Notes under the pieces: generated by a model | Seen by the model: the letters and a program-made list of their open reading frames with translations, nothing else | Databases searched by the model: none | What the model was told of the DNA's origin: nothing | Position numbers and translations under genes: made by a program | DNA from: Desulfofarcimen acetoxidans DSM 771 | Lineage (GTDB): Bacteria; Bacillota; Desulfotomaculia; Desulfotomaculales; Desulfofarciminaceae | DNA length: 64,000 nt | Assembly (NCBI RefSeq): GCF_000024205.1 | Contig: NC_013216.1 | Location: forward strand, 1,736,001 to 1,800,000 | Direction: 5' to 3' | In this document: one piece after another, positions 17,005 to 48,778 of the stretch | Numbering within the stretch: position 1 is the stretch's first letter | How the letters are laid out: the number at the start of each line of letters is the position of its first letter

Positions 17005-20000
17005 CTACATCGTTAATATAACATGGTGCTTCTTCCCGTCATCATGTAATTCAATATAAGGGCCTTTCTTGGTGTCCAGACTTTTCAAATCCATATCCTC
17101 TCCATTAATTTGTAACGTACTGACTTCACTGGATTTGCCGGACGGGTTTTTGACCGAAATAAGATAGTGTGTCTTGCCAAAACGGTAGTTGACGGAAAAC
17201 TCCGGCCACTCGGCGGGAATGCAGGGGCGAAGGTAGAGTTTTTTGCCTTGCCGGCGTAAACCCAGTATCCACTCTACTCCTGCCTGGTACATCCAACCGG
17301 CGGCACCGGTGTACCAGGTCCAGCCCGCTCGTCCTTTATGAGGGTCCGCAGTATAAACGTCTGCCGCCATGACGTAGGGCTCTCCGGTGTACTGGCGCAC
17401 TTCATTGGTTGTGCGCGTGTGAGTTAAAGGATTCAGCATTTGAAACAACTCCAGCGCCTTGTCTCCTCTGCCCAGCTTGCACCAGGCGATAATGCTCCAG
17501 ATAGCACCATGCGTGTACTGAGCCCCGTTTTCACGGATCCCTGGTGGGTAACCCTGAATATAACCGGGACTGGGATCTGTATGATCAAAAGGCGGTGTCA
17601 AAAGGCGCACCACGGAAATATCCCTGTCCACAAGTTCCCGGTCAAAGGATTGCATTGCCCTTAGCGCCTTTTCTTTGGGCGCGGCTCCGGAAATCACTGA
17701 CCAGGATTGGGCGATGGCATCAATACGGCATTCCTGGTTATGAACAGATCCCAACCATTGCCCGGCGTCAGTGAAAGCCCGCCTGTACCACTGACCGTCC
17801 CAGGCATGTTTATCCAGATTCAAGGACAACTGCTGCCGCGCATTCCGGTAGCGGTTGGCCCGTTTGCTGTCACCGCGCTGCCGGCAAAGCTCCCTGATTC
17901 TGTCCAAGACATCACTGAGAAACCAGCCCAGCCAGACACTTTCGCCACGACCTTCAGCACCCACGCGGCTCAGGCCGTCGTTCCAGTCACCAATTCCGAT
18001 CAGAGGCAGCCCGTGTTCACCGAAACGCTGCAAGGACCTGTCAATGGCCAGCAGGCAGTGCTCAAAGACGGTACTCTTTTTCTCAGAGCTTTGTGTCGTT
18101 TCGTAGCGTTCATATTCACCCGCACGCAAGGTCTCACTTTGCAGAAATTCTACCGGTTCATCAAGCACACTGTCGTCTCCCGTGTGCTCCACATAGCGGG
18201 CAACTGCATAGGGCAGCCAGAGCAAGTCGTCGGAAAAGTCAGTACGGATGCCTTGCTGAGTTTCTTCATGCCACCAGTGCTGTACATCGCCTTCTTCGAA
18301 CTGATGCGCGGCATGGAGCAATATTTGTGCTCTGGCCAGATCCGGTCGTGTGTGCAGAAGTGCCAGGCTGTCCTGTAATTGATCACGGAAACCATAGGCT
18401 CCTCCTGCCTGGTAAAAAGCGGATCGCGACCATAACCTGCAGGCGACGGCCTGGTATAACAGCCAGCCGTTGATTAGAACATTCAGTTCCGGGCAGGGTG
18501 TAGCGACTGAAATCTGATCCAGCGCCTCATCCCAGAATTTCTGCACCTTTTGCCAGGAATCCTCACAAACCCGGGCTTTACTGTACTTTTCAGCCAGTTC
18601 CAGGGCAGCCTCCCGTGAAGCTTCGCAGCCTACCAGGATATAAACCAGGCGTTGGGCTCCCGGTTCTAATGTTAGACCGGCCTGTATTGCGCCGCATGAT
18701 TCATATTGAGGACCTGTTTGGCCCGATAGGTGTTTCCGGCCGAGAGCGGCGGGGTTTTTCCAAGTCCCGTTGCGTCCTATGAATTCGCTGCGATTTGCTG
18801 TCCAGGACAATGCTTGCTCAAATGCGTTCTCTTTTGTCCTTGCTTCAGATTTTGCTGAAAGATGAGATTTGGCAAGCATTTCCTGAGGGTAGATGCCCAT
18901 AAAGCCGGTGGCATTGCGAAAGACCTCCTGGTAAGTATTGTGAGCCATCAAAAGACGGGCTTTGTTGTCCCACTCTGTAACGATAAATGGAGCGTTAGAG
19001 TGGCGCTGTACGCCCAGTACCCATTCTGCATAATAAGTGACAGAAAGTTGTCGTTGCAGAGCAGTTTTATTGTGCAGTTGTAATTTTATAACCTTGACAG
19101 GATCACCAGGAGACACGAAAACCGTCATTTCATGCCTTATGCCATACCCTTCGTGTTCAAAACGGGTAAAGCCCCGGCCGTGTGTTGCCACATAAGGCCT
19201 GTCTGCCTGTGCAGTCATGGGTGCGGCAGTCCACATCTCGCCGCTTTCTTCATCCCTCAGGTAGCAAACCTCACCGGGAGGGTCGAGCACAGGATCATTA
19301 GACCAGGGCGTGATTTTGCACTCGCGGCTGTTGCGCCACCAGGTGTAACCGGTACCCAGTTCAGTTGCAAGGCAGCCAAAATGAGGATTGGCAATGACAT
19401 TGCTCCAGGGCGCCGGCAGGTGATGATTATTTTTCAATACTATGCGGTACTCCCGGCCATCAGGAGTAAAACCTCCCCAGCCGTTAAAGAAAATCAGATC
19501 AGGCAGCTCACAGGGAGGCCTGGCTGTAAATCTGTTTAGCGGTGCTGTCGGAACCAGTTCAGCCGGCAAGCCTGTGTCCGGTTTCGGCAGTTTGGTTTGT
19601 GTCTTGAGACTGGGCCCGCCCGCCTGCAGGACAATGCGGGCCGTGGCTATTAACAGCAGCCGGTCCCTCTCGGGCAGTTGGTTGGCGCTAATAACTGTAA
19701 TACCCCCGTGACCGGCGCCAAAACGGTCAACGCCGTGTTCGACCGCCCGCCGGAGCGCTTCCTGCAAATCCTGCTGGTAGCCTCCTGTAGATTCGTTCAG
19801 AATAATCAGGTCGAAGAATAAACCCAGGCGGCGCAGGTATTCATGACCCACCAGCAGTTTTACCACAAACTGCAGTGCAGCCCGGTTCTCAATGCGCACA
19901 AGCACTATTGGCCGGTCTCCGGAAACTCCGTAAGCCCAGAGACCGGACTGACCCTTGACATTTCCGGCAATGCTTTTTAGCCGCTCCTGCTTTAGCGGTG

Positions 20001-23000
20001 GGGTGTACAAAACCTGGCCTGCAAAGGCCTGCCAGACCATGGCCTGGGAAGCGGTCAGGTGTAAATGGCGCAGCTCGATTTGACTGCGATTCCAGGCCAG
20101 TTGAAAGGTCCGTTCCACCACTTGCTCTGCTGTGAATCGCCCAACAATATTTAGTGCTTCTTCCCTGGTGTCGGCAACAGCAGTAATGGCAAACAGCTGA
20201 ATTTGGTCACCCGGTTCAAGGCTTAACTGGCGTCGCATGATAAAAGCAGGATCCGCTGCCGAGCCCACCGTTCCACGCAAGCGGGAGCCTATTCCCTGCG
20301 GCTGGGACAGGCTATGCCCCCTGCCGATAAAGCCGGCCCGGTCTGTTTCGAATTCTACAGGCCCCAGTGTGGCATCGGTTCCCAGAAGAGAATGTGCCGC
20401 CCATAAGGATTTTTCACTTGACTGGCGAGGTCTCCTCCGGGCCAGCAGGCACTCAGCCTCTTTGGCATACTCAGTTTCAATAAACAGTTTATTGAAGGCA
20501 GGGTGCGCCTCGTCAGCCATGGGAGGCGCCAGAACCAGTTCCAAAAACGTAGTTATTTCCATAATCCGCGCCGTGTTTCCCGTGTTAGTGAGCAGCAGCC
20601 TTCGGACTTCTGCGTTCCATTCCGGTGACACGCAAATTTCCAGGCTCGTTTGAATATCTCCGTCTACCCGCAAAAATTGCGCTCGATCCAGCGAGAATTG
20701 CACCCGTTGTTTGGAAGAGGGCACACGACAGGGTTGAAAAGCCGGCGACCATAAAGCATTGTTAGTCAAGTCACGAATATAAATATAACTGCCCCAATTG
20801 TCCAGCACCGGATCCTCCCTCCAGCGAGAGACGGATATGTTCTCGGAGCGGCAAAAGCCGCTGCCGCTGTTAGTCAACATAGTCGTAAAGGTGCCGTTAG
20901 AAAGAATGCAAACCTCCGGTGTGCGAGTGTCCGGAGAAAGAAATTCACGCACGGCACCTGTTTGTTCCGGCCTGCTATAGGGCAGGTGCACTCGTTTGAT
21001 GGCCGGGTGTTTTATAATCTTAGGCCTGGCAGGAATACGTTCCTGCAGCAGCAGTTCCGTCGCTTGTACACGTTTATCCCGGTGAAATCGCTCGTACATT
21101 TTTTGGGGTGACAGCAAGTTGGCCAGAGTAAGCAGGCTCATACCCTGGTGATGGGCCATAAAACTCTGAATTACCTGGTAAGTCTTATTCTCAGGCAGCC
21201 GCTCAAGCGTATAATCAATGGCCTCGTAGAAGCCGTATTTACCCCGCCCGCCAAGCTTATCTATTTTTCGCAGGTTAGCCAGTCCAAGACTTCCCGTATA
21301 AGGCAAAGCCAGAATTGTTGCATAAGGGGCTACCACCAGGTCCTGCTCCAAACCACGTTTAAAACCCAGACCGGGAACACCGAAGGCCCGATACTGGTAG
21401 TTCATCCGGTGATCAAAGGCATAATAGCCGGACTCCGAGATGCCAAAAGGGACGCCCCGCTGCCTGGCGTAATCGATTTGGCGCTTCACCACAGCACGAT
21501 AGGTGCTGTCCCAGATAGTATTGCGATAGGTGCGCATAACCAGCGAAGGCATCAAATACTCAAACATGGTTCCGGACCAGGAAAGCAGTGTGGTCCGTTT
21601 TCCTACCTTGGTCATTGTCCGGCCCAGCGCGTGCCAGTGTGCTACAGAGACCTGCCCCAGAGCAATAGCAATGAAGCTGGCCTGTCTGGCTTCTGAAGCC
21701 ATCAGGTCATACAGGATATCGTCACGCTTATGCAGCCCGGCGTGATAACCAAGGCTAAACAATTTAGCCTTATGATCGTAAAGAGGCCGAAAATTTGTGG
21801 TCTGAACCAGAGCTTCCAGCCTGGTAATCAGTTTTTGCCCGCGCCTGGCTGAATCTATATCTTTAAAGCCAATTACCGGTGTAAGTTCTTCAGCAAAGGC
21901 AGCATTATGTGCCGCCTTTCCATAAGTGCGGCCTGAGCCGGGCTGTTTGTCTTTTTCCGCATCCGGCCTGAGCCATTCCACCAGTCCCTCCTTTAAAAGC
22001 ATCAAATAGCCGACCAGGTTGCCTGAGTCGACAGTTGACACGTATTGGGGCGGCAATGGTTCAAGTGTCAGGGTATCGTACCAGTTGTAGAGATGGCCCT
22101 GCCATTTTTCCAGACTTTCGACTGTACTGATGGTACGCTCCAAACGTTCGAGCATGCCCTGTGTATCAATGAATCCCAAATCACGCGCCGCCAGCACACA
22201 AGCAAGGTAGAGCCCGATGTTGGAGGGCGACGTGCGGTGTGCTACTCCACGGGGCGGATTAAACTGGACATTGTCAGGGGGCAGCCAGTGTTCTTCGGCT
22301 GTTACATAGTCCTCAAAAAATGCCCAAATCTGCTGCGCAAGCACTCGCAGTTCTTCCTTCTCGCTTTCCTTAAACTGTCCTTCAGTCCACTTTATAGGCT
22401 GATCCAGCCAGCGCACTGCCAGCGGAGCCAGAGCCCAGAGTGCGCTGAGCAGCAAGCCTGTCCCCTGCAGCAGCGGGCTCGTACTTGTCGCGGCTGCCGC
22501 CGCAAAAATAAAAACCAGGAAATAACCCCCGTGCATGTACAGCACGCCAGGCTGCCGGCCGCCCCGGCAGTGTTTTTCAACCTCCGCTGAACAAACCCAT
22601 TCAAGTAAATTGCGTTTTGATACGAATAAACGGTACAAAGTTCTTGTGACTGCGTCCAGCAGCAGCATGCTTTGATAAGGCAGAGTTATAAGAGTCAGCA
22701 GTGCCTGGCCCACTGAAGCCAGCAAGTTCTGGGGACGCCAGATTGTCCGCCGGATGGCTGCCAACTGGCGGATTACCGGCAAAAAGAGAGTTGCCAGGAC
22801 CAGAGCAAACCAAGCCCAGGGGGTGCCGGGCAAGACGGTCAGACCCAGCAGCAAAAGCGCGAACAGACCCGGCGTGAGTAAGCTGCGCCTCATGTTATCA
22901 ATAATTTGCCAGCGATTAAGTGCGGATAAGTTAACCGGCACAAGCCTTCCCGAGCGGTCGGAAACACGGGAAAACAGCCAGAGCAAGAGCTGCCAATCAC

Positions 23001-25365
23001 CACGCACCCAGCGGTGCAGTCTTTTCTGGTGGGCGCTGTATGTAGCCGGGTGGTCATCGATTAATTCAATATCAGAGAGCAGACCGGTCCGTAAAAAAGC
23101 ACCTTCCAAAAGGTCATGGCTGAGTACTCTGTTCTCCGGAATACGTTTGCAGAGTACCGTATCAAAGACATCAACATCAAATATACCTTTTCCTGTGAAT
23201 ATGCTTTGCCCCAGTCCGTCTTGGTAGGGATCAGACATAGCAAAGGCGTAAGGGTCGATTCCCGGGTCTGCCGACCATAAATAGGCAAAACGGGAACGCA
23301 TGGCTGCTTCGTGGCTGATGCCGATACGCGGCTGCAGCACGCCGTAGCCCTCGACAACACGTGTCCGCGCGGCATTTAATCGTGGCCGGTTATAGGGCAG
23401 GTGCAGGGTGCCAATCATCCGGTGGGCGCTTCCCATGGTCAGCTGCGTGTCGGCGTCAAGCGTAATGATGTAACGAATACGCGCAAAAACAGCGCTGTCT
23501 CCGTGGACAAAATCATAAGTCGTAGTTTTCTGTCCCTTGATCAGTTCGATAAATTCCACCAGTTTGCCGCGCTTACGTTCCCAGCCCATCCATTTACCCT
23601 CGGAAGGGTTCCATAGCCTGCGGCGTTGGAAAAGGTAAAAAGTAGTATTGCCCGGAGTACTGTAGCTACGGTTTAATTCGTCAATGCCGGCGCGAGCGGC
23701 TGCCAGAATAGCTGTATCTTCCGGAAGGCTTTCCGTATCTGCATCGGCAAAATCGCCCAGCAGGGCGAAATAGATATTCGGATCACGGTTGGCCAGGTAA
23801 TGCAGTTCAAGTCTGTCTGCCAGTTCCTGTACGTCCGAAGCTTTTGACCAAATCACCGGAATTACTACCATTGTGGCCGCTTCCGGCGGGATGCCGCGGG
23901 AAAAATCGTAGCGCAACAGGTGACGTGTCTTGCTGGCGCACTCTATAAACCAGTGAGCGGCATTTACAGCCCACTCGCTGGCAGGCAGCAGCAGAGCAAG
24001 CAGAATTATAATCCCGCGGGCCGGTGTAAAGTTCGTTCCCTCTCCGATGTAAACGGCGAAACCGAGCAGGGCGACTGCTAAAAAGCCGGTCAGCAGGCTG
24101 AAATATGTGCTGGTTGTCAGCCGCAACAGTCCATTTTCTACAAAACGGCGAGGGGACAGGCAAACTTTTAAAGCCTGCTGCAGCTTTCTGACCCCGGCCG
24201 GGTCAAGCAGATAGAAAGCAACATAGCTCTGGCGCGGCGGTTGATATACATTATTTGAATTATGATCTGACTTATCTTTTTTGCGGTTATTTACTTTATT
24301 ATTTTCCACTCCGTAATTTGCCGTGTCTGAGCAAGCTTGTTCATTTTCCTCGCAGTATTGTTTATAAGACCTGTCTGCAAGCTCCACAGCCTGCTTGGCC
24401 ACCAGGTTTTCCGGCACGCAAAAGCGATGGGCCAATTGCTCAACTCGCTTTCTCAGCGTGTCGCGGCTGGAAAAGTCAAGCTTGGAATAATCGCCGGCCA
24501 TTTCCTGCCGCAAAGTATGTTCGACAATACAAAGCTGCTCGAAGGGATCGCGCCAGTCCCAGCGAGAAATGTTGCGCAAGCTTCTGATGAGATTACCAGT
24601 TGTAACCTGATAGCCGGCCTGAAGCTGAAACTCGTAGGAGATGATGCGATCCAGACTGGCCGGGCCGTTTTCTAATTTGCACATCAACCACTCGCGCACG
24701 GTTGATGAATCATCCGCCCATTCGCGTAAATGGCTGATCAGATGGACAATCATCGGGCCGGAGAGCGGCATGTCCTGATTTGCTTTTTCCAGAGCCTCCC
24801 GGAGCACTTCCGGGTTTAGCTTTGACGGTTCTACGCGTTCCAGCAACCGTTCAACCAGCTCGCAGATTTCTCTCCGTTCACGCAGCAGCTGCATGACTTC
24901 GGCCAGGTGCCGGATAAGAGCTATGCGCAGCGCCAGCGGGACTGCCCAGGCCTCGGCAATGGTAATAACAGATACATCCTGATAAAAATTTATGTATGAA
25001 ACGAGCGAGTTCTCATCCATGTTTCCATCCACATGTTTGAGATAGTCGGCAGTTATTGACAATATACGTGGCTCACCGGTTTTGTACAGGCGCGGCAACC
25101 CCTTCAAAAAGGCTTTGGAGATCTGGTTCTTCACGACCAGTACCTGTTCTTCAATAAACTCGGCATTGTCGAGCAACCATTCTTCCGACGGCTGTGAGCA
25201 ATTTCCCCGGTCATTCTGCAGGCAATTTACGAACGCGCGCAGATTTTCCACATCAGCATAAAATTGACGCCCGAAACGTTTTAAGGTTATGCGTCCCATG
25301 TCCGGAGCGTGTGTCAGCGCGAGTTCGTGAGCTTTTTGTCGGAGCTGTTCAGTATTTAGATTCAT
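17005..25365 (-). CDS. ndvB: Cyclic beta-1,2-glucan synthase (NdvB-like)
   Basis: Membrane enzyme of 2786 residues that builds and cyclises beta-1,2-linked glucose chains. Order of parts: helical N-terminal region; membrane helices around 415-490; a GT84 glycosyltransferase with the LDADTQL metal motif (about 635) and HRWVRGDWQL (about 785); more membrane helices (about 820-970); a glycoamylase-like middle domain; a C-terminal GH94-type phosphorylase domain with GIGDWNDGLSRVG (about 2460). Length matches the family's usual 2800. ATG at 25365 follows GGAGG; the open frame further upstream lacks a ribosome site. The gene is clearly GC-richer than its neighbours, suggesting lateral transfer. Confidence 0.95.
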   Translation of the reverse strand: MNLNTEQLRQKAHELALTHAPDMGRITLKRFGRQFYADVENLRAFVNCLQNDRGNCSQPSEEWLLDNAEFIEEQVLVVKNQISKAFLKGLPRLYKTGEPRILSITADYLKHVDGNMDENSLVSYINFYQDVSVITIAEAWAVPLALRIALIRHLAEVMQLLRERREICELVERLLERVEPSKLNPEVLREALEKANQDMPLSGPMIVHLISHLREWADDSSTVREWLMCKLENGPASLDRIISYEFQLQAGYQVTTGNLIRSLRNISRWDWRDPFEQLCIVEHTLRQEMAGDYSKLDFSSRDTLRKRVEQLAHRFCVPENLVAKQAVELADRSYKQYCEENEQACSDTANYGVENNKVNNRKKDKSDHNSNNVYQPPRQSYVAFYLLDPAGVRKLQQALKVCLSPRRFVENGLLRLTTSTYFSLLTGFLAVALLGFAVYIGEGTNFTPARGIIILLALLLPASEWAVNAAHWFIECASKTRHLLRYDFSRGIPPEAATMVVIPVIWSKASDVQELADRLELHYLANRDPNIYFALLGDFADADTESLPEDTAILAAARAGIDELNRSYSTPGNTTFYLFQRRRLWNPSEGKWMGWERKRGKLVEFIELIKGQKTTTYDFVHGDSAVFARIRYIITLDADTQLTMGSAHRMIGTLHLPYNRPRLNAARTRVVEGYGVLQPRIGISHEAAMRSRFAYLWSADPGIDPYAFAMSDPYQDGLGQSIFTGKGIFDVDVFDTVLCKRIPENRVLSHDLLEGAFLRTGLLSDIELIDDHPATYSAHQKRLHRWVRGDWQLLLWLFSRVSDRSGRLVPVNLSALNRWQIIDNMRRSLLTPGLFALLLLGLTVLPGTPWAWFALVLATLFLPVIRQLAAIRRTIWRPQNLLASVGQALLTLITLPYQSMLLLDAVTRTLYRLFVSKRNLLEWVCSAEVEKHCRGGRQPGVLYMHGGYFLVFIFAAAAATSTSPLLQGTGLLLSALWALAPLAVRWLDQPIKWTEGQFKESEKEELRVLAQQIWAFFEDYVTAEEHWLPPDNVQFNPPRGVAHRTSPSNIGLYLACVLAARDLGFIDTQGMLERLERTISTVESLEKWQGHLYNWYDTLTLEPLPPQYVSTVDSGNLVGYLMLLKEGLVEWLRPDAEKDKQPGSGRTYGKAAHNAAFAEELTPVIGFKDIDSARRGQKLITRLEALVQTTNFRPLYDHKAKLFSLGYHAGLHKRDDILYDLMASEARQASFIAIALGQVSVAHWHALGRTMTKVGKRTTLLSWSGTMFEYLMPSLVMRTYRNTIWDSTYRAVVKRQIDYARQRGVPFGISESGYYAFDHRMNYQYRAFGVPGLGFKRGLEQDLVVAPYATILALPYTGSLGLANLRKIDKLGGRGKYGFYEAIDYTLERLPENKTYQVIQSFMAHHQGMSLLTLANLLSPQKMYERFHRDKRVQATELLLQERIPARPKIIKHPAIKRVHLPYSRPEQTGAVREFLSPDTRTPEVCILSNGTFTTMLTNSGSGFCRSENISVSRWREDPVLDNWGSYIYIRDLTNNALWSPAFQPCRVPSSKQRVQFSLDRAQFLRVDGDIQTSLEICVSPEWNAEVRRLLLTNTGNTARIMEITTFLELVLAPPMADEAHPAFNKLFIETEYAKEAECLLARRRPRQSSEKSLWAAHSLLGTDATLGPVEFETDRAGFIGRGHSLSQPQGIGSRLRGTVGSAADPAFIMRRQLSLEPGDQIQLFAITAVADTREEALNIVGRFTAEQVVERTFQLAWNRSQIELRHLHLTASQAMVWQAFAGQVLYTPPLKQERLKSIAGNVKGQSGLWAYGVSGDRPIVLVRIENRAALQFVVKLLVGHEYLRRLGLFFDLIILNESTGGYQQDLQEALRRAVEHGVDRFGAGHGGITVISANQLPERDRLLLIATARIVLQAGGPSLKTQTKLPKPDTGLPAELVPTAPLNRFTARPPCELPDLIFFNGWGGFTPDGREYRIVLKNNHHLPAPWSNVIANPHFGCLATELGTGYTWWRNSRECKITPWSNDPVLDPPGEVCYLRDEESGEMWTAAPMTAQADRPYVATHGRGFTRFEHEGYGIRHEMTVFVSPGDPVKVIKLQLHNKTALQRQLSVTYYAEWVLGVQRHSNAPFIVTEWDNKARLLMAHNTYQEVFRNATGFMGIYPQEMLAKSHLSAKSEARTKENAFEQALSWTANRSEFIGRNGTWKNPAALGRKHLSGQTGPQYESCGAIQAGLTLEPGAQRLVYILVGCEASREAALELAEKYSKARVCEDSWQKVQKFWDEALDQISVATPCPELNVLINGWLLYQAVACRLWSRSAFYQAGGAYGFRDQLQDSLALLHTRPDLARAQILLHAAHQFEEGDVQHWWHEETQQGIRTDFSDDLLWLPYAVARYVEHTGDDSVLDEPVEFLQSETLRAGEYERYETTQSSEKKSTVFEHCLLAIDRSLQRFGEHGLPLIGIGDWNDGLSRVGAEGRGESVWLGWFLSDVLDRIRELCRQRGDSKRANRYRNARQQLSLNLDKHAWDGQWYRRAFTDAGQWLGSVHNQECRIDAIAQSWSVISGAAPKEKALRAMQSFDRELVDRDISVVRLLTPPFDHTDPSPGYIQGYPPGIRENGAQYTHGAIWSIIAWCKLGRGDKALELFQMLNPLTHTRTTNEVRQYTGEPYVMAADVYTADPHKGRAGWTWYTGAAGWMYQAGVEWILGLRRQGKKLYLRPCIPAEWPEFSVNYRFGKTHYLISVKNPSGKSSEVSTLQINGEDMDLKSLDTKKGPYIELHDDGKKHHVILTM

Positions 25366-25678
25366 AGATCCTCCCAAAAAAGTTGCAATATCCAAAAACA
25401 CACCAATAAGAATATTCCCATTTTTGCTGTGGTTTATTAGTTGCGGGTGTGGGGAGGATGGTTTAGCACTCTTTCTAATATGAAGAATTAATTGGATATG
25501 GAAAGAATGCAGAGAATAGCAGGTTAAATAAAGTTTGTGAAACCGAAAACTACCCACTCATATAATGGGTAGCTAGTTATAGGATTATATTTAAGGGAGT
25601 AAAGAAATGAAACAAGTTTCATTGTAATATTTTAAAAGATTAAAATATTGGAAGGTGAGCTAAGATTTAAAATATAGA
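25366..25678. other. Intergenic region upstream of ndvB
   Basis: About 310 AT-rich bases. The minus frame is open here in phase with ndvB but lacks family likeness. Apart from the small hairpin at 25550-25572 I see no regulatory motif. Confidence 0.5.
25550..25572 (-). terminator. Probable terminator of the GGDEF-EAL gene
   Basis: A 7-bp stem CTACCCA / TGGGTAG with a nine-base loop is followed on the minus strand by TTTTC. It lies about 105 bases beyond the GGDEF-EAL gene and before ndvB, so it would separate the two transcripts. Confidence 0.5.
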
Positions 25679-40883: not shown

Positions 40884-41969
40884 GTGCTGGCAAAACTCAG
40901 GCAAATAATTATAACCCATAAAACAAAAAGAATTGAAACTTCTTACATGGAAGATATGGTGAGAAAAAAGAGTGTCTTTATCGAAAATGGGGGATATGAG
41001 GCGCTGGCGGATTGTATTGAAGATCTTTGCGCCGAGGGACTGCTCACGCCGGTAAAAGCGTCCGGCACTAACGGGCGTAGACCGCTGTTGTACAACCGCT
41101 ATCATATCCGTGAGGAGAAAAAGGAGACTGACAGACACCGATTGATTGCTTACCATCCCAGGATATGCACGGATTATTACAGCAATCACCCGCTTGGCCA
41201 TGACGAAGATATAGAATACTTGGATATGCTGGATGCTTTTTTGAAAGATGCAGGTATGTACGATACCTTAAATCTTCCTTTTTCCGTCAACGAAAGATCC
41301 TATCAGATTTTCCGGGATGAAAAATTTCTAACGAGTGCGAGGGGGCAGGAGTTTTGCCGTAGGATCGGACTACAGTGGGGTGATCTGGGCTGTTATCCCA
41401 CCTTTGAACCTTTTTTCTATGTTATTTATGAAACCGTATCCCCATTAAACTGCCTGGTAGTAGAGAACAAAGACAGCTTTTTTACACTGAAAAAAATATT
41501 TAACCGGGGAGGAAACTGGCAGAAAAGTGCACTTGACCTGTCTGACAGGCAAGCCAGAGTCATTGATGGTGTAAAATTAGATATGCTTATTTACGGCGAA
41601 GGCAAAAAGATATTGCACAGCCTTAAGTTTATGGAGGAGATTCCTGATTGCAGGGATACGGGTATTACACTTTATTATTTCGGTGACCTTGATTATGAGG
41701 GCATTTCAATTTATAGCGGCTTGGCGGAAGCTTATCCTGAATATAAGATAATTCCTTTTGTGTTTCTTTACCGCGGTTTATTGAAGATATCTCCCCGGCC
41801 CATGGTTAAAAAACAGCGGCTCAATGACCTGCATTTAGAAAACTTTTTAAAGTATTTTTCTGCTGAGGAAACAGAAGTTATATTGTCTGTTTTAAGCCAA
41901 TCTATGTATATACCGCAGGAAGCTTTAGCCTATCCTTTTTATCTGGAGGAGTGTGACAGGGGTGCATGA
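40884..41969 (+). CDS. jetD: Wadjet protein JetD (Toprim nuclease)
   Basis: Nuclease subunit of the Wadjet plasmid-restriction system, 361 residues. The C-terminal half is the topoisomerase VI-A-like Toprim domain: a VVENKDSF strand with the catalytic Glu (about 191) and YYFGDLDYEG with the DxD pair (about 266). The N-terminal half has winged-helix character. GTG at 40884 follows GGAGG with seven bases between. Its end overlaps jetA, so translation is coupled. In studied systems JetD cleaves circular DNA that the SMC part has extruded; the same job is inferred here. Confidence 0.88.
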   Translation: MLAKLRQIIITHKTKRIETSYMEDMVRKKSVFIENGGYEALADCIEDLCAEGLLTPVKASGTNGRRPLLYNRYHIREEKKETDRHRLIAYHPRICTDYYSNHPLGHDEDIEYLDMLDAFLKDAGMYDTLNLPFSVNERSYQIFRDEKFLTSARGQEFCRRIGLQWGDLGCYPTFEPFFYVIYETVSPLNCLVVENKDSFFTLKKIFNRGGNWQKSALDLSDRQARVIDGVKLDMLIYGEGKKILHSLKFMEEIPDCRDTGITLYYFGDLDYEGISIYSGLAEAYPEYKIIPFVFLYRGLLKISPRPMVKKQRLNDLHLENFLKYFSAEETEVILSVLSQSMYIPQEALAYPFYLEECDRGA

Positions 41970-43500
41970 ATGCCTGCGTGATTTTTCAGCAAGAGTAAAG
42001 TCATTGTCAGTATTTGAGCCAATCTGGCAATTAAAAGGCTTGCGCAAATACCAGGAATATGATCTTGTTTCACTTGGTTTGGCGGTACTTTTGTATATTC
42101 TCGACAGTATGCTGATGGGACGCAGTGAGTGTGACCATGAAGGGATAAGCAAATTTCTGTTGGAAGTGATGCGCTGTCATTACAATAAAGAATTGAGCAG
42201 TGAAGAAGCGGAGCAACTTACCTATACTGTTTTGGATCAACTGCGCAATAACGGCAAACCGTTTGAACATCCCTTTAAAGATTTGGAAACGGGCGGCTCT
42301 GAAAAACTGCGCTTTCATCTGATAGAGATAGCCGGCTACCAAATAGGAGGAAAGATTAAATTTAAGCTTTCCCAGGAGGGTCTGGATTTATTGTTTAAGA
42401 CAAGGGAGATTTACCAGGAACTGCGCGTAACGATTGCACAGATTTACCTGCGCCAGCAGATTGAAAGGCGGGTTTTTGACGGAGCTTTACAAGCTGTAGA
42501 TGACCTGTATTTGCAGGTGAAAAAGGTATACAGTTCCTTGCAGGATATGCGGCGGGCAATATTGAGGGATGTCCACGCCGTTTCCATAGATCGGTATAAA
42601 CAACTGGTCGGTCGGGTACAGCGGCAGTTTCAGGATGAAAAAAAGGTTTTTTCTGAATTAAAAGAACTGGTACGCTCTACTGAGCAGGACATTCGCTCGC
42701 GCTACCTGCGGGAAAAAGATAGGTTGGCTTTAACCCAATTACTGGAAGTGGCTCGGCGGCTGGATATTGTTGTAAACGAGCATACCAGGCTGTTCAGTGA
42801 AAAGCTTGACTTAAGCATGGTGCTGGAAGAGACTATGGAGTCGCATATTGCCCATGCCTTTCGTACCAAGATCAGTTTTGACAGGGAACTGGTGGATGGG
42901 GTGATCAGTAATAATGCTTCTCTGGAAACCATGCGCCACTTAATTCACCCTCTTTTAAAGCCAAAACCCCCTAAGTATTTCGACATGCAAAAGGTTTTTG
43001 AGCCCAATTTGATTACCAGAACGGTTGAGGAGCAGGAAGAAGAAGTTGTCTCCGACTATGATCCGGAGGAGGTCATGGAACAACTTAAGCGGGAAAAAGC
43101 ATTAAAAGAATTGCGGGATAAGAGAACTCGATATTATATAGAAATTTGTCTGTCACCTCTGGAAAAAAGCACCTCTTACACCTTGCTGGATGTGCTGCAA
43201 TCTATGGAACCTGCTGCTTGTGATGACCTGATCAATCGGGTTGACTTTTATCCTTTTCTGGTACAATTGCACCAGACGGGCACTTTGCCTATGGAAGTAA
43301 CCGAAGAGATGGAATCAAAAACCTTTGATTCAACTGAAGGTACCAACCTGCTTTTTTTGCTGCTGCAATATTTAAAAGAGAACGAGTACCTGGCAGATAA
43401 GGGTGTTTTGGAGGTATGCGGTTCTGAGGATGTTTTGACTTTGGCTAACGGCTGCCAGGTGACGAATTTTGTTTTTCGGGCGTTAAGCGATGTTTTGTAA
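41962..43500 (+). CDS. jetA: Wadjet protein JetA (kleisin-like)
   Basis: Protein of 512 residues, mostly helical with long coiled segments at about 150-280 and a charged stretch near 365-395. By order and length it is the JetA, or kleisin-like, component, probably the DUF5716 family. In Wadjet it bridges the SMC heads. GTG at 41962 is preferred because GGAGGAG (41945-41951) is ten bases upstream; GTG at 41953 is too close to that site. It overlaps jetD by eight bases. Its N-terminus has wHTH character. Confidence 0.8.
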   Translation: MHECLRDFSARVKSLSVFEPIWQLKGLRKYQEYDLVSLGLAVLLYILDSMLMGRSECDHEGISKFLLEVMRCHYNKELSSEEAEQLTYTVLDQLRNNGKPFEHPFKDLETGGSEKLRFHLIEIAGYQIGGKIKFKLSQEGLDLLFKTREIYQELRVTIAQIYLRQQIERRVFDGALQAVDDLYLQVKKVYSSLQDMRRAILRDVHAVSIDRYKQLVGRVQRQFQDEKKVFSELKELVRSTEQDIRSRYLREKDRLALTQLLEVARRLDIVVNEHTRLFSEKLDLSMVLEETMESHIAHAFRTKISFDRELVDGVISNNASLETMRHLIHPLLKPKPPKYFDMQKVFEPNLITRTVEEQEEEVVSDYDPEEVMEQLKREKALKELRDKRTRYYIEICLSPLEKSTSYTLLDVLQSMEPAACDDLINRVDFYPFLVQLHQTGTLPMEVTEEMESKTFDSTEGTNLLFLLLQYLKENEYLADKGVLEVCGSEDVLTLANGCQVTNFVFRALSDVL

Positions 43501-43543
43501 TTTGCCGAGAGATTAAGGTGATTGTCCTATTGAGGTGGTGCAA

Positions 43544-44290
43544 ATGTATAAAGCTGAGAATGTAAAGGATGCCTGCGCTATTTTTATGACACTTGTCAGC
43601 CGGGGAGTAGTTGACGAAAAGTCCTCCCGGTTATTGCAGGCATATAAAAATGTTCCCGAGGTAAGGGAGATTATATCCGGAGTTTTTGAACCTGCAGCAG
43701 AAGTCAAGGTATTGAATGCGGTGGACAAGCTGTATATCTCACCGGGCATTGATAACCGTGTGTTTGGCTACACCAATACAGAGTTGAGGGATTTGCTGGG
43801 CTTAAAGACAAATGCCGAGCTTTATACCGCATATTTTATAATACTCTGTCTGATGGCTATGTTTTACGACAGCGAGGATTTGAACGTGGTTACCCGCCAG
43901 TTCGTGCCGGTAATAGAATTGGAATCATTTGTTACTGACAAAACAGAAAAGATCGGGCAGTTGGAGGAAATAGCTGTTATAGAGGAAGAATTGGAGTTCG
44001 GTTTTTCACATGCTGTTTATCTGTGGCGTGATTTGCCTGATTATGATGATAAATTAAAGAGCCTGGCAAGAAGTAAGAACAATAAGGTGAGCTTTATTCT
44101 GAAAGTCTGCAATTTTTTGCAGGCGCAGGATTTGGTTATCGTACATCAGGACAGGGAGATTTACCTGCGTGACAGACTGGATTGCATGGTGCGCCGCTAC
44201 TACTCGGATACCTCGAGAAAAGAGCAATTGTTACAGTTTCTGCTGTCCGGCGGGCAGGCGGCAAGGAGGGATCAGGTTGCCGCAAATTGA
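43544..44290 (+). CDS. jetB: Wadjet protein JetB (KITE-like)
   Basis: Protein of 248 residues, probably of DUF6063. Helical N-terminal half, then a region with wHTH character (FILKVCNFLQAQDLVIVHQD). By position it is the JetB or KITE-like subunit that binds the kleisin. ATG at 43544 follows GAGGTG with six bases between. Its last 14 bases overlap jetC, so both are translated together. No enzyme motif is present, as expected for a structural subunit. Confidence 0.78.
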   Translation: MYKAENVKDACAIFMTLVSRGVVDEKSSRLLQAYKNVPEVREIISGVFEPAAEVKVLNAVDKLYISPGIDNRVFGYTNTELRDLLGLKTNAELYTAYFIILCLMAMFYDSEDLNVVTRQFVPVIELESFVTDKTEKIGQLEEIAVIEEELEFGFSHAVYLWRDLPDYDDKLKSLARSKNNKVSFILKVCNFLQAQDLVIVHQDREIYLRDRLDCMVRRYYSDTSRKEQLLQFLLSGGQAARRDQVAAN

Positions 44291-47200
44291 GCGGATTAGA
44301 CTAACTAATGTCAAGTATGATAACGGTAAAAAAGAATTTGTCAATGATATGTTTTTGCCTGCAGGCAGTAACTGTGCTTTTATTTTGGAAAATGGGGGCG
44401 GCAAGTCTCTTATGGTGCAACTGCTTCTACAAGTAGTGCTGCCTAATGAAAGTATCGGTGTGAGGCCGGCTTCCGATCTGGTCAGCGGCAGCGATCGCTT
44501 TACCGGACATATCCTGGTGGAATGGCGCCTGGATGACCCGGAATCACGCTACCTTTTGACCGGTTTTTGTTTTACCAGGGGCTACGAGGATGAAAGGCTT
44601 TTTAAATATTTTATGTATACGATTCAGTATGATCAGATTCCTAATGAGCTTGATATAGAGAACCTGCCGCTGCTGGAAAATCGCAAGGTCCGTTCCTACC
44701 AGGAATTGTTGGTTATGTTGCGCCGCCTGTCCGGTGAGGGAGGCCGCCGCCTGGATGTTTTTCAACAGGATAAGGGGGAAAAGCACAAGTATGTCAAGCA
44801 TCTGGAAACATTTAATATTTACGAGCGGGAATGGCGGGGCATCAAGACCACTAACGGTGATGAAGGCGGTATGGAAGGTTTTTTTGAAAAGAGCAAAAAA
44901 ACCGAACAGCTTATGGAAAGATTGATTATACCGGGTGTGGATCAGGTGATTTTTAACCGGGCCGGGGAAGAAAAAGAGTTAGCCCGTGCTTTTACCAGAC
45001 ATAAGGACAATCTTTTGAGCATCCCTAAGCTGGAAAAAAACATCAAAGATTTTTCTACTATCCGGGGTGAGGGAGAAAAGGTGTTGGCCGCCATCAAGGC
45101 TTACAGTGACTGCATATTGGAGCGCAGTGGGCAAAAAGAAAAAGTAGCGCGATTGTACTGCAGTGTGAACAATAGGAAAGAGGAAATCAATGCCTTAAAC
45201 GCAGGACTGTCAGCGGATCTGGAAAAGCAAGGTAAATGGCTCCATGAATTGGAATATAAGCTGGACAGCCTGCCATATATCAGAGTGAAACTGGAACTAC
45301 AGGATTTGGAAAAGAAATTTATTGCTCTGACCGAAAGTATTACACTGGTTGAAAAAGAGGCAAGGCAGTCTGCCTATGAGGTAAACCTGGCTAAGGGTAA
45401 AAACCTCTGGCTTAAAATTGCTGCGGAGCAGGCAAAGATAAAAGCGGCTCAGGTTGAGGCGGAAAATCTGACGCGCAGCAACCGGGAACTCATGGAGCAG
45501 TTATTAACCTGCCGCTATACCTGGAAAACCAGGCTTAAAGAAAGGATTAACCGGCAGATGCCGGGTGTAAAAGCTCTGAGGGAGGAATTGTTAGCCCTGA
45601 AGTCGGAAACGAAAGAGAAGGAGGTAAAACAGAAACGGCTGGAAGAAAGTATCGAAAAGAGCGGAAAACAATCAGGCATGGTGGAAGGCTGGCTGAAATT
45701 TTATTCAGAAAAAGAAAAGACGCTTTTGGCCGGGGGATATGAGGAAGCCTGGGTAAAAGATCCTGCTTACGGAAAAAAGGCAGTGTCGGAAATTATACAG
45801 GAAATCGAGCGGGCAAAGGATGAAATTGAAGACAGTATAAAAAAGATTGTTGAAGAATTGCCGCCGGTTGAGAAAGAAATTGAAGAACTGAAATTCCGGC
45901 AGGCGTCTGCTGCCAATCGCATGGAACGCATTAACGAAAATCGAGCTGTTTTTAATTCGCAATATGAACATATCCAGGACAGTTTGACGCGGTTTTCGCT
46001 GGATGTGGGGGATATATTTGCTAACCGTGCTGACATTGAGACCAGGTTGGCTCAAAAAGTAATTGAGGGGCAGCAAGCTATGCTGCGGGTCGGGGCAAAA
46101 AAGAGCAATATTCAGGAGAAGGCCGAACTGAGCGGCTTGGAATATTATGTGCCCAATCGGGAATTGCTGCTGGTGCAGGAGAAGTTGGAAGAATGGGGTG
46201 TTTTCTCCGAGACAGGCAGCAAGTGGCTTGATCTGGCCGGAATAAGCGGCCGACAGCGGGAGAATTATCTGAAAAACAACCCTTTGCTGCCATATTCTTT
46301 GATCGTTGCCCGCAAGGATCTGGCTAATTTGAGCAAATTGGCGGAAAAGTGGCAGAAGCTGGCTTTAAATAACCCTGTGCCGCTGGTGGTGAAGAGTGAG
46401 GCAGCGTTGTCCGGCGGTGAGGTGAAAGACAGTGCTCTGCTGCCACTGATGGATAACTATGTTTACCTGCCCTGGCATGGCGGTTACCGTTATGCTCTTT
46501 CCCGCCAGGCATTGGAAGAATTGAGGCTCTCCCTTGGCGAGCAGATGGAGGACGCGGAACAGGAAATAAGCAGGCTGCGTCAAAATAGTGACTTATTGGC
46601 GGAATTAGAGTTTAAAGTACGGGAATTTTATCTGAGCTATCCGCAAGACCCAACCCCGGTTTTCGAAAGTGAGAGCAATGCTGTTGTTGCTGAGATGCAA
46701 AAAACAGCTTCACGCCTGGTGTATCAGGAAAAGCGGCGTATTCAGAAGCTTGAAGTCAAAACAGTGCTGGAGGAAGATAGGGAAAAGAAGGGAGAACTCT
46801 TGACTCAAGCGAAAAATCACTATAAAGAACTGGAAAACCTCTATTGCCAGCACGAAGAGAAAGTGAGTTATTTAAGGCAAATGGAGGAACTGGCCGGACA
46901 AATTCAGTCCTTGCACACAGAATTGGCGGATTGCCGGAATAGGCTGAACGGTCTGCAAACTAGAATAACCGAGTTGACATTGCGGTTGGATAACGAGAGC
47001 AGAATACTGGATGAAATGGAGCGGGAGTGTGAAGGCCTGGAAGTTTTGGAACATGACGGGTGGCGGCAGTCTCATATGATAACTGATAAACTTCTTAATA
47101 TGGACGGTGACAACAGGCGGGACAGTGCGCTGCCTCAGGTCGTGGCTGCCGTTCTGCCGGAATTGAGACAGGCTTTGCCTTTGAGCTATGAAGAAGCTAA

Positions 47201-48758
47201 AGCACAGGCGACCGGTTTGGAAAAAACTTTGGCTGGAGAAGTAAAAGGGCTCAAGTCGCTGGAAGATGATATTAAGAGCTGTCAGGAGCATATTAGAGAA
47301 TACGAAAAAATAATTCAAAATACTTACGGACTGCTTTTGCAAGAGGTCAGCCATGCCGATAGCTATATTTCAAATGAAGTGATCGGATTATTGGAAAACA
47401 GGCGGGAGTCATGTAAGGATATGCATCGTAGGATGCAAAAAGAGCAGGCAGGCATGAATGAGCAGCGGGCCGGAGCTGTTTCAAAAATGGAAATATATTG
47501 TGAGGAAGTGGCGGAAAAGTACGGACAGGAGCCATATACTCTGTTTTCTCATCCCGACAATGAGGAAGCGGTTTTGCGGCGGGATAAATTGCAGGTGCGG
47601 AATGAATTGCAGCTCCTGGGGGATTTGCTTGAAAAAAATAATAATGAGTTATCCTTGTTGAAAGACGCGAGAATCAGGTTGGATGAAAACATGAAGAGCA
47701 ACAGCATAATGCCGATTGATGATGGGCTGCCCCCGGAGGTTTGGCAGCAGGCCATGCAAAATGTCACGGATTTTGTTTCCCGGCAAACCCGCTTGTTAAA
47801 TAAGCTCAAAGATGAAGAGCAGAGCAAGAGCCGGGTGGTAGAGAAACAGTTCGAGATTTTTAAAAAGGTTTTGGAGGCCCGACACAACGGCATCGTGAAC
47901 AGTTTTGTTAAATCTTTGTTAGAGCAGGACAGGCATAAATATGATTTTGCGCTGGTAGAACCTGTTTTCAGTAAGTGTTTTGCCACTATCCTTAAGTATG
48001 AGGAGAGTTATAAACACAAGCTGAAGGAAATTGAGGAGGATAAAAAGGAACTGATCAGTCGCTGCATACAGCAGGCTTCCAGGGTGGCCGATGAAATAAA
48101 TTCTATCAAGAAGTTTTCCAAGTTTACTTTAAACGATCGGAATTTGCAGGCTATTGACATTAAGCTGAGATCTTGGGAGCAACAGGCTGCGCCGGTGGTG
48201 ACGGACAATTATATTAATCAGTGTATCATGATACTAAACGATATGAAAGATGAAGGTGCGGAGGAGCAAAAACTACAGGAATTTATTGAGCACAAAATGT
48301 CCTCCAAGGAATTGCTGAATGTTCTATCACCTCTTTCCGAGGCTATAGTCAGAGTTTTAAAACCGGAAAAGGATCATGCCTCCTCTCGCTATGATCGTTG
48401 GGAAGGTGTTTTTAAATGGTCGGGTGGTGAGCGTTACGCAGGCTTTTGTGCTATGTATATTGCTCTGATCTCTTACCTGCGCAGCAAGGCCAGTGCTATG
48501 TACAACCCGGCCAAAGTTTTGGTGGCGGATAATCCTTTCGGTGCCGCCTCTTCTCCCCATATCCTGGATATGGTTTTCCAATTGGCTGCGGCCAACCGGG
48601 TGCAGATGATTTGTCTTACCGCTCTGACTGATCAGAATATTTTTAAGTATTTTGATGTAGTCTACAGTTTGAAGCTGCGCAGTCTTGGGGGCAAAGAGTT
48701 TATTTCTGTCAACCGGATGGATACGGGGTACTATCGCAGTGGAGTGAATGAAGACTAA
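44277..48758 (+). CDS. jetC: Wadjet protein JetC (SMC-like ATPase)
   Basis: SMC-family ATPase of 1493 residues, the DNA-loop-extruding motor of Wadjet. The N-terminal head has Walker A LENGGGKSLM (about 36-45). Long coiled coils (about 270-560 and 790-1300) surround a hinge-like middle. The C-terminal head has the signature KWSGGERYAGF (about 1380) and Walker B-like KVLVADNPFGAAS (about 1415). In the last, Asn stands where most SMC proteins have the catalytic Glu. TTG at 44277 is chosen because AAGGAGGG lies six bases upstream and the fold begins there. A terminator overlaps the stop codon. Confidence 0.9.
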   Translation: MPQIERIRLTNVKYDNGKKEFVNDMFLPAGSNCAFILENGGGKSLMVQLLLQVVLPNESIGVRPASDLVSGSDRFTGHILVEWRLDDPESRYLLTGFCFTRGYEDERLFKYFMYTIQYDQIPNELDIENLPLLENRKVRSYQELLVMLRRLSGEGGRRLDVFQQDKGEKHKYVKHLETFNIYEREWRGIKTTNGDEGGMEGFFEKSKKTEQLMERLIIPGVDQVIFNRAGEEKELARAFTRHKDNLLSIPKLEKNIKDFSTIRGEGEKVLAAIKAYSDCILERSGQKEKVARLYCSVNNRKEEINALNAGLSADLEKQGKWLHELEYKLDSLPYIRVKLELQDLEKKFIALTESITLVEKEARQSAYEVNLAKGKNLWLKIAAEQAKIKAAQVEAENLTRSNRELMEQLLTCRYTWKTRLKERINRQMPGVKALREELLALKSETKEKEVKQKRLEESIEKSGKQSGMVEGWLKFYSEKEKTLLAGGYEEAWVKDPAYGKKAVSEIIQEIERAKDEIEDSIKKIVEELPPVEKEIEELKFRQASAANRMERINENRAVFNSQYEHIQDSLTRFSLDVGDIFANRADIETRLAQKVIEGQQAMLRVGAKKSNIQEKAELSGLEYYVPNRELLLVQEKLEEWGVFSETGSKWLDLAGISGRQRENYLKNNPLLPYSLIVARKDLANLSKLAEKWQKLALNNPVPLVVKSEAALSGGEVKDSALLPLMDNYVYLPWHGGYRYALSRQALEELRLSLGEQMEDAEQEISRLRQNSDLLAELEFKVREFYLSYPQDPTPVFESESNAVVAEMQKTASRLVYQEKRRIQKLEVKTVLEEDREKKGELLTQAKNHYKELENLYCQHEEKVSYLRQMEELAGQIQSLHTELADCRNRLNGLQTRITELTLRLDNESRILDEMERECEGLEVLEHDGWRQSHMITDKLLNMDGDNRRDSALPQVVAAVLPELRQALPLSYEEAKAQATGLEKTLAGEVKGLKSLEDDIKSCQEHIREYEKIIQNTYGLLLQEVSHADSYISNEVIGLLENRRESCKDMHRRMQKEQAGMNEQRAGAVSKMEIYCEEVAEKYGQEPYTLFSHPDNEEAVLRRDKLQVRNELQLLGDLLEKNNNELSLLKDARIRLDENMKSNSIMPIDDGLPPEVWQQAMQNVTDFVSRQTRLLNKLKDEEQSKSRVVEKQFEIFKKVLEARHNGIVNSFVKSLLEQDRHKYDFALVEPVFSKCFATILKYEESYKHKLKEIEEDKKELISRCIQQASRVADEINSIKKFSKFTLNDRNLQAIDIKLRSWEQQAAPVVTDNYINQCIMILNDMKDEGAEEQKLQEFIEHKMSSKELLNVLSPLSEAIVRVLKPEKDHASSRYDRWEGVFKWSGGERYAGFCAMYIALISYLRSKASAMYNPAKVLVADNPFGAASSPHILDMVFQLAAANRVQMICLTALTDQNIFKYFDVVYSLKLRSLGGKEFISVNRMDTGYYRSGVNED

Positions 48759-48778
48759 CCTGGTTAGTCTTCATTTTT
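48748..48778 (+). terminator. Terminator overlapping the jetC stop
   Basis: A perfect 12-bp stem ATGAAGACTAAC / GTTAGTCTTCAT with a three-base loop contains the jetC stop codon and is followed by TTTTT. It closes the Wadjet operon. Confidence 0.9.

Follow-up and report, generated by a model that had tools for sequence, protein, structure and literature searches.

A predicted Wadjet type III operon in Desulfofarcimen acetoxidans and the invariant Walker B asparagine of type III JetC proteins

The stretch of DNA analysed here, referred to as the window, comprises 64,000 nucleotides of the genome of Desulfofarcimen acetoxidans DSM 771, a sulfate reducer. Checking the sequence for open reading frames revealed four uninterrupted, tightly packed genes in the order jetD-jetA-jetB-jetC at window positions 40884-48758, all on the + strand. 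The first, jetD (40884-41969), starts with GTG and encodes a 361-aa protein of the type III Wadjet Toprim nuclease kind. It overlaps by 8 bp with jetA (41962-43500, GTG start), which encodes a MukF-like kleisin subunit of about 512 aa. These are followed by jetB (43544-44290, ATG start), encoding a MukE-like KITE subunit of about 248 aa with a DUF6063 domain, and, with an overlap of 14 bp, by jetC (44277-48758), whose TTG start lies behind an AAGGAGG sequence and whose product is an SMC-type ATPase of 1493 aa. These gene starts are the likely ones, refined by ribosome-binding sites in the sequence; the longest ORFs of jetA and jetB run from 41953 and 43535, and the starts at 41962 and 43544 were preferred, the PADLOC profile of JetA beginning at residue 4. 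An intrinsic terminator-like hairpin with a 14 bp stem and a T-rich tail (48746-48776, + strand; −20.4 kcal/mol) overlaps the jetC stop codon. The intact reading frames and the hairpin bear out the original prediction of a complete four-gene operon with a terminator at this place, and the refined TTG start gives JetC the 1493 residues that had been predicted. The host genome is a single contig of 4,545,624 bp, and the published genome of Desulfotomaculum acetoxidans 5575T is described as one replicon of 4,545,624 bp, with no mention of a plasmid (PMC3035247). Elsewhere in the window, an ORF of 2850 aa (17005-25557, − strand) looks like a cyclic beta-glucan synthase; its G+C content is 52%, compared with 43% for the window, and it was possibly acquired.

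PADLOC profiles placed all four proteins in the type III families within this one operon, with E-values far beyond chance: JetD3 (E 1.4e-110), JetA3 (E 1.6e-233), JetB3 (E 4.5e-108) and JetC3 (E 1.2e-100). The type I profiles yielded weak JetD1 matches only, JetD3 being far stronger, and among the type II profiles a weak JetD2 match was the sole one for the four proteins; the JetC2 model PDLC00552 had no match in the host genome. The Lamassu LmuB profile was marginal on JetC (E 0.006, versus 1e-100 for JetC3). In Pfam, JetD matched JetD_C above the cut-off (E 1.9e-5) and JetB matched PF19539/DUF6063 (E 2.9e-60); JetA had no Pfam match, and NCBIfam gave no match for any of the four proteins. 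With the JetC protein as the query, the window jetC was the sole match in the host genome at E ≤ 0.001. We therefore assign the operon, by family profiles, to an already known kind, Wadjet type III, of which it is a further example. The type had been called with hesitation before, and correctly so; of the two domain families named along with it, DUF6063 was found in JetB, whereas DUF5716 went undetected in JetA. The operon shares with other type III systems its four proteins, their order and the family residues discussed below, and nothing notable sets it apart, its JetC being diverged.

JetD contains the acidic residues expected of a Toprim nuclease, as predicted originally. E194 (41463-41465, + strand) aligns with E236 of MksG, and in the D268-L-D270 motif (41685-41693, + strand) the two aspartates fall on MksG D279 and D281, in an alignment that is weak (E 0.98) and with MksG numbers derived via the constant offset of a fusion construct. 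E194, D268 and D270 are invariant in 18/18 JetD homologues. In MksG, the substitutions E236A and D279A drastically impaired nuclease activity (PMC10123090). The alignable Toprim domain and the MukF- and MukE-like folds of JetA and JetB link the operon to Wadjet type I/MksBEFG, although sequence similarity is very low and the JetD-MksG pair is the sole sequence match in the PDB.

Because profile searches of the PDB with JetA and JetB gave no credible relative by sequence, we turned to AlphaFold models of the single subunits. For JetA (pLDDT 86) the top PDB fold matches were the MukF structures 7nz2, 9gm7 and 3euh (E 8e-4), and for JetB (pLDDT 89) the top match was MukE, 3rpu_E (probability 0.98, E 0.025), in both cases with a low whole-chain TM-score. 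Given these modest E-values and scores, the models support a MukF/MukE-like plan without close likeness, in agreement with the kleisin-like and KITE-like subunits proposed earlier. The resemblance to the MukBEF condensin is thus one of fold, and MukBEF differs in having no nuclease subunit.

The D-A-B-C order, which had been noted before, is the usual one in type III: it was present in 56/80 loci found via the JetC N-terminal head and in 30/40 loci found via JetB. Three of these 40 JetB-found loci had jetD last (A-B-C-D), and divergent type III operons of this order were seen at L187, L188 and L192. JetB3 matched 47 of the 398 genomes sampled from the phylum, 26 of 150 relatives had JetC3, a genome of the same family (G001) had no JetC3 match, and the nearest relatives of the window JetC in the JetC tree belong to other families, the nearest being 51% identical over the head domains. 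Owing to these observations the distribution of type III can be called patchy, which fits gain and loss. A scan of genome contigs with JetB as a single protein yielded no match. The operon is flanked by short intergenic stretches of approximately 285 and 340 bp. Two possible remnants of peptides in them matched nothing in Pfam, and a second copy of the flanks was absent from the genome beyond one 53-bp partial match. When the corresponding sites of relatives were compared as empty sites, the cysteine desulfurase gene was common to them, and none of the other window neighbours was. The decay formerly described on both sides is therefore not supported; the patchy distribution agrees with the idea of an island that is gained and lost, but direct evidence of a mobile island was not found.

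The four genes very probably make up an intact Wadjet operon of type III (a JET nuclease), whose task would be the defence of the cell against small DNA circles, plasmids in particular. This role is proposed because of the type III assignment, the usual gene order, the JetD residues, the MukF- and MukE-like models, the rarity of the system on plasmids, a report that native jetABCD blocks plasmid transfer into Clostridium cellulovorans (PMC12287153) and the single-replicon genome published without a plasmid. In a tblastn search, a type III match occurred in one of 72,556 plasmid records, an 898-kb megaplasmid, a count influenced by how sensitive the search was and by the choice of plasmids sequenced so far. 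Such rarity would be expected of a system directed at small plasmids, and it lends indirect support to their restriction. Phage records and viral contigs, when scanned, contained no type III match. Type III has been little studied; according to a review, most work on Wadjet concerns type I (PMC10586767). The analysis itself shows which genes are present, their order and intactness, the families they belong to, the motifs of the Toprim and ATP sites and the MukF/MukE-like folds; the course of events is modelled on type I. JetA, JetB and JetC would form a MukBEF-like SMC motor complex, and, by analogy with type I, two such motors joined through JetA would load on circular DNA. They would extrude the circle using ATP, sense its size and stall once the whole of it had been extruded; a bent DNA segment would then be presented to the Toprim nuclease JetD and cut.

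The head motifs of JetC could be aligned with those of type II, which shares the plan of a four-subunit SMC complex with a Toprim nuclease. Walker A, L-E-N-G-G-G-K-S (44385-44408, + strand), corresponds to the GxNGSGKS form of type II; L-x-N-G-G-G-K was found in 92/92 aligned JetC3 proteins and is near-invariant in the jetB-anchored set described below. The ABC signature, W-S-G-G-E (48417-48431, + strand), corresponds to LSGGE. With both motifs in register, profile alignment placed Asn1419 (codon 48531-48533) of Walker B, K-V-L-V-A-D-N-P-F-G (48513-48542, + strand), opposite the catalytic glutamate of type II (VISLDEAFAG). SMC-type motors normally need the Walker B glutamate to burn ATP. The earlier description of an SMC ATPase with an intact Walker A holds as far as the lysine and the three motifs are concerned, but it overlooked that this glutamate is absent.

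The sequence D-N-P-F-G is invariant in all 92 type III JetC proteins, which represent 90 distinct head sequences. As these loci had been picked by Walker A or by overall JetC similarity, a second set was assembled via jetB only; D-N was again found in 39/39 type III JetC, with variation among its neighbours (P to L, F to Y, G to A). The type III operon on the megaplasmid also has D-N. In type II JetC, in contrast, D-E is kept in 12/12 (LDEAFAG); the comparison is between type III and type II, and type I lies outside it. Damage to the window copy is ruled out as the origin of the change by the D-N in both type III sets. The Walker B asparagine is thus common to every type III JetC in the comparison, a feature of the class rather than a lesion in one protein. 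The open papers searched do not mention this change; we regard the asparagine in place of glutamate in a type III motor as new at the family level, with priority not established.

The missing glutamate is hard to reconcile with fast, ATP-driven extrusion of the type I kind, and replacement of this residue is reported to slow diverse ABC ATPases drastically (PMC10586767). With asparagine at this position, the type III ATP cycle must be slower or must use another acid. A candidate for such an acid lies in an N-x-x-E motif (44853-44864, + strand; N193 and E196 counting the start Met), whose N and E are invariant in 92/92 and 39/39 type III JetC. Its context, I-N-x-x-E-G-G-x-E-x-F-F, resembles an SMC Q-loop by eye, and our guess is that it is one; profile alignment of JetC with housekeeping Smc was not strong enough to locate the motif, and a profile search of the PDB with JetC returned coiled-coil matches only. 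Our working hypothesis, and what we think is the case, is that the type III motor still hydrolyses ATP, possibly via E196. We tentatively suggest, as a possibility well short of an even chance, that the ATP site has been rebuilt: the Walker B glutamate would have become an invariant asparagine, and the invariant glutamate of N-x-x-E, at the place of the SMC Q-loop, would have taken over catalysis.

The same residues could mean that the type III motor lacks a productive ATP hydrolysis cycle. ATP binding alone would then bring the JetC heads together into a clamp or switch acting on DNA of a particular shape, and the clamp would free JetD from inhibition, more in the manner of Lamassu LmuB than of a loop extruder. 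We hold this to be rather doubtful as a whole, although the asparagine that replaces the catalytic glutamate throughout both type III sets speaks for it, and LmuB, an SMC-like ATPase, offers a precedent: it naturally has Gln instead of Glu at this Walker B position, and its ATPase activity is thought to be low or absent (PMC10586767). Lamassu differs from Wadjet in its other partners and its nuclease. In type III JetC, moreover, the Walker A lysine, the signature serine and the Walker B aspartate have stayed invariant, the invariant E196 could take over catalysis, and the MukF/MukE-like partners are those of loop-extruding motors, all of which argue against this reading.

Some type III relatives consist of A-B-C without a recognised adjacent jetD (21/80 JetC-found loci, several of which have too little upstream sequence to judge). 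In the JetC tree, 14 such loci with enough sequence, together with three unclear ones, form one clade, mostly of Lachnospiraceae and Clostridiaceae. A JetD3 match was absent from the whole genome in all 13 genomes checked that have no jetD beside jetC, 12 of them with A-B-C, and was present in 8/8 control genomes. The JetC of the jetD-less loci also has D-N-P-F-G in Walker B. In four of these loci recR lies directly upstream of jetA (L101, L115, L132 and L141), and jetD-less jetABC precede one of two recurring downstream genes; a common gene follows them at L106, L116, L120, L122, L133, L134, L138 and L140. These recurring gene neighbourhoods suggest a fixed chromosomal role, and the clade may represent an MksBEF-like condensin, either an offshoot or an ancestor of type III Wadjet. 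Divergent type III A-B-C genes without a recognised jetD were also seen in two genomes of one genus, at the L045:9602-11107 region (G134) and at L189 (G325); the former genome has a type II JetC elsewhere.

JetABC might mainly organise the chromosome in the host as well, in place of an absent Smc-ScpAB, JetD being of secondary importance. Neither ScpA nor Smc was found in the host genome, and the jetD-less systems of Lachnospiraceae, with recR and further conserved genes beside them, do resemble a fixed chromosomal system. We nevertheless think this improbable. Smc exceeded the family cut-off in only 7/40 relatives of the order and JetC3 was found in only 26/150, so that most relatives without Smc are also without JetC3. 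Furthermore, the operon encodes JetD, key residues included, the window JetC groups in the tree among operons with jetD, and an SMC-like protein of 1587 aa with a canonical Walker B is encoded elsewhere in the genome. An operon in decay and without activity, with the absent Walker B glutamate as a mark of lost function, is extremely improbable, given that every type III JetC examined has the same change, that the four frames are open and that the other key residues are intact.

The 1587-aa SMC-like protein is a lone one (L168:2696-7459, at about 136695-141458 of the host contig), with the motifs LSGGE and LLLDEWDANLD. It matches the PADLOC JetC3 model PDLC00580 as well as LmuB, and no jet genes adjoin it; the JetC3 label of PDLC00580 may be wrong and the model may describe another SMC family.

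The intact type III operon proposed here, together with its relatives, is of interest beyond plasmid defence. The jetD-less clade provides a natural comparison of nuclease-armed and unarmed versions of one motor. The question of the type III ATP site is testable by point mutants, and if the site has indeed been rebuilt, the type III SMC motors would form a class of their own by their ATP mechanism. Either fast ATP hydrolysis would not be needed by type III for the recognition of circles, or hydrolysis would proceed by another route, and either outcome would bear on the way in which SMC complexes convert ATP into movement of DNA.
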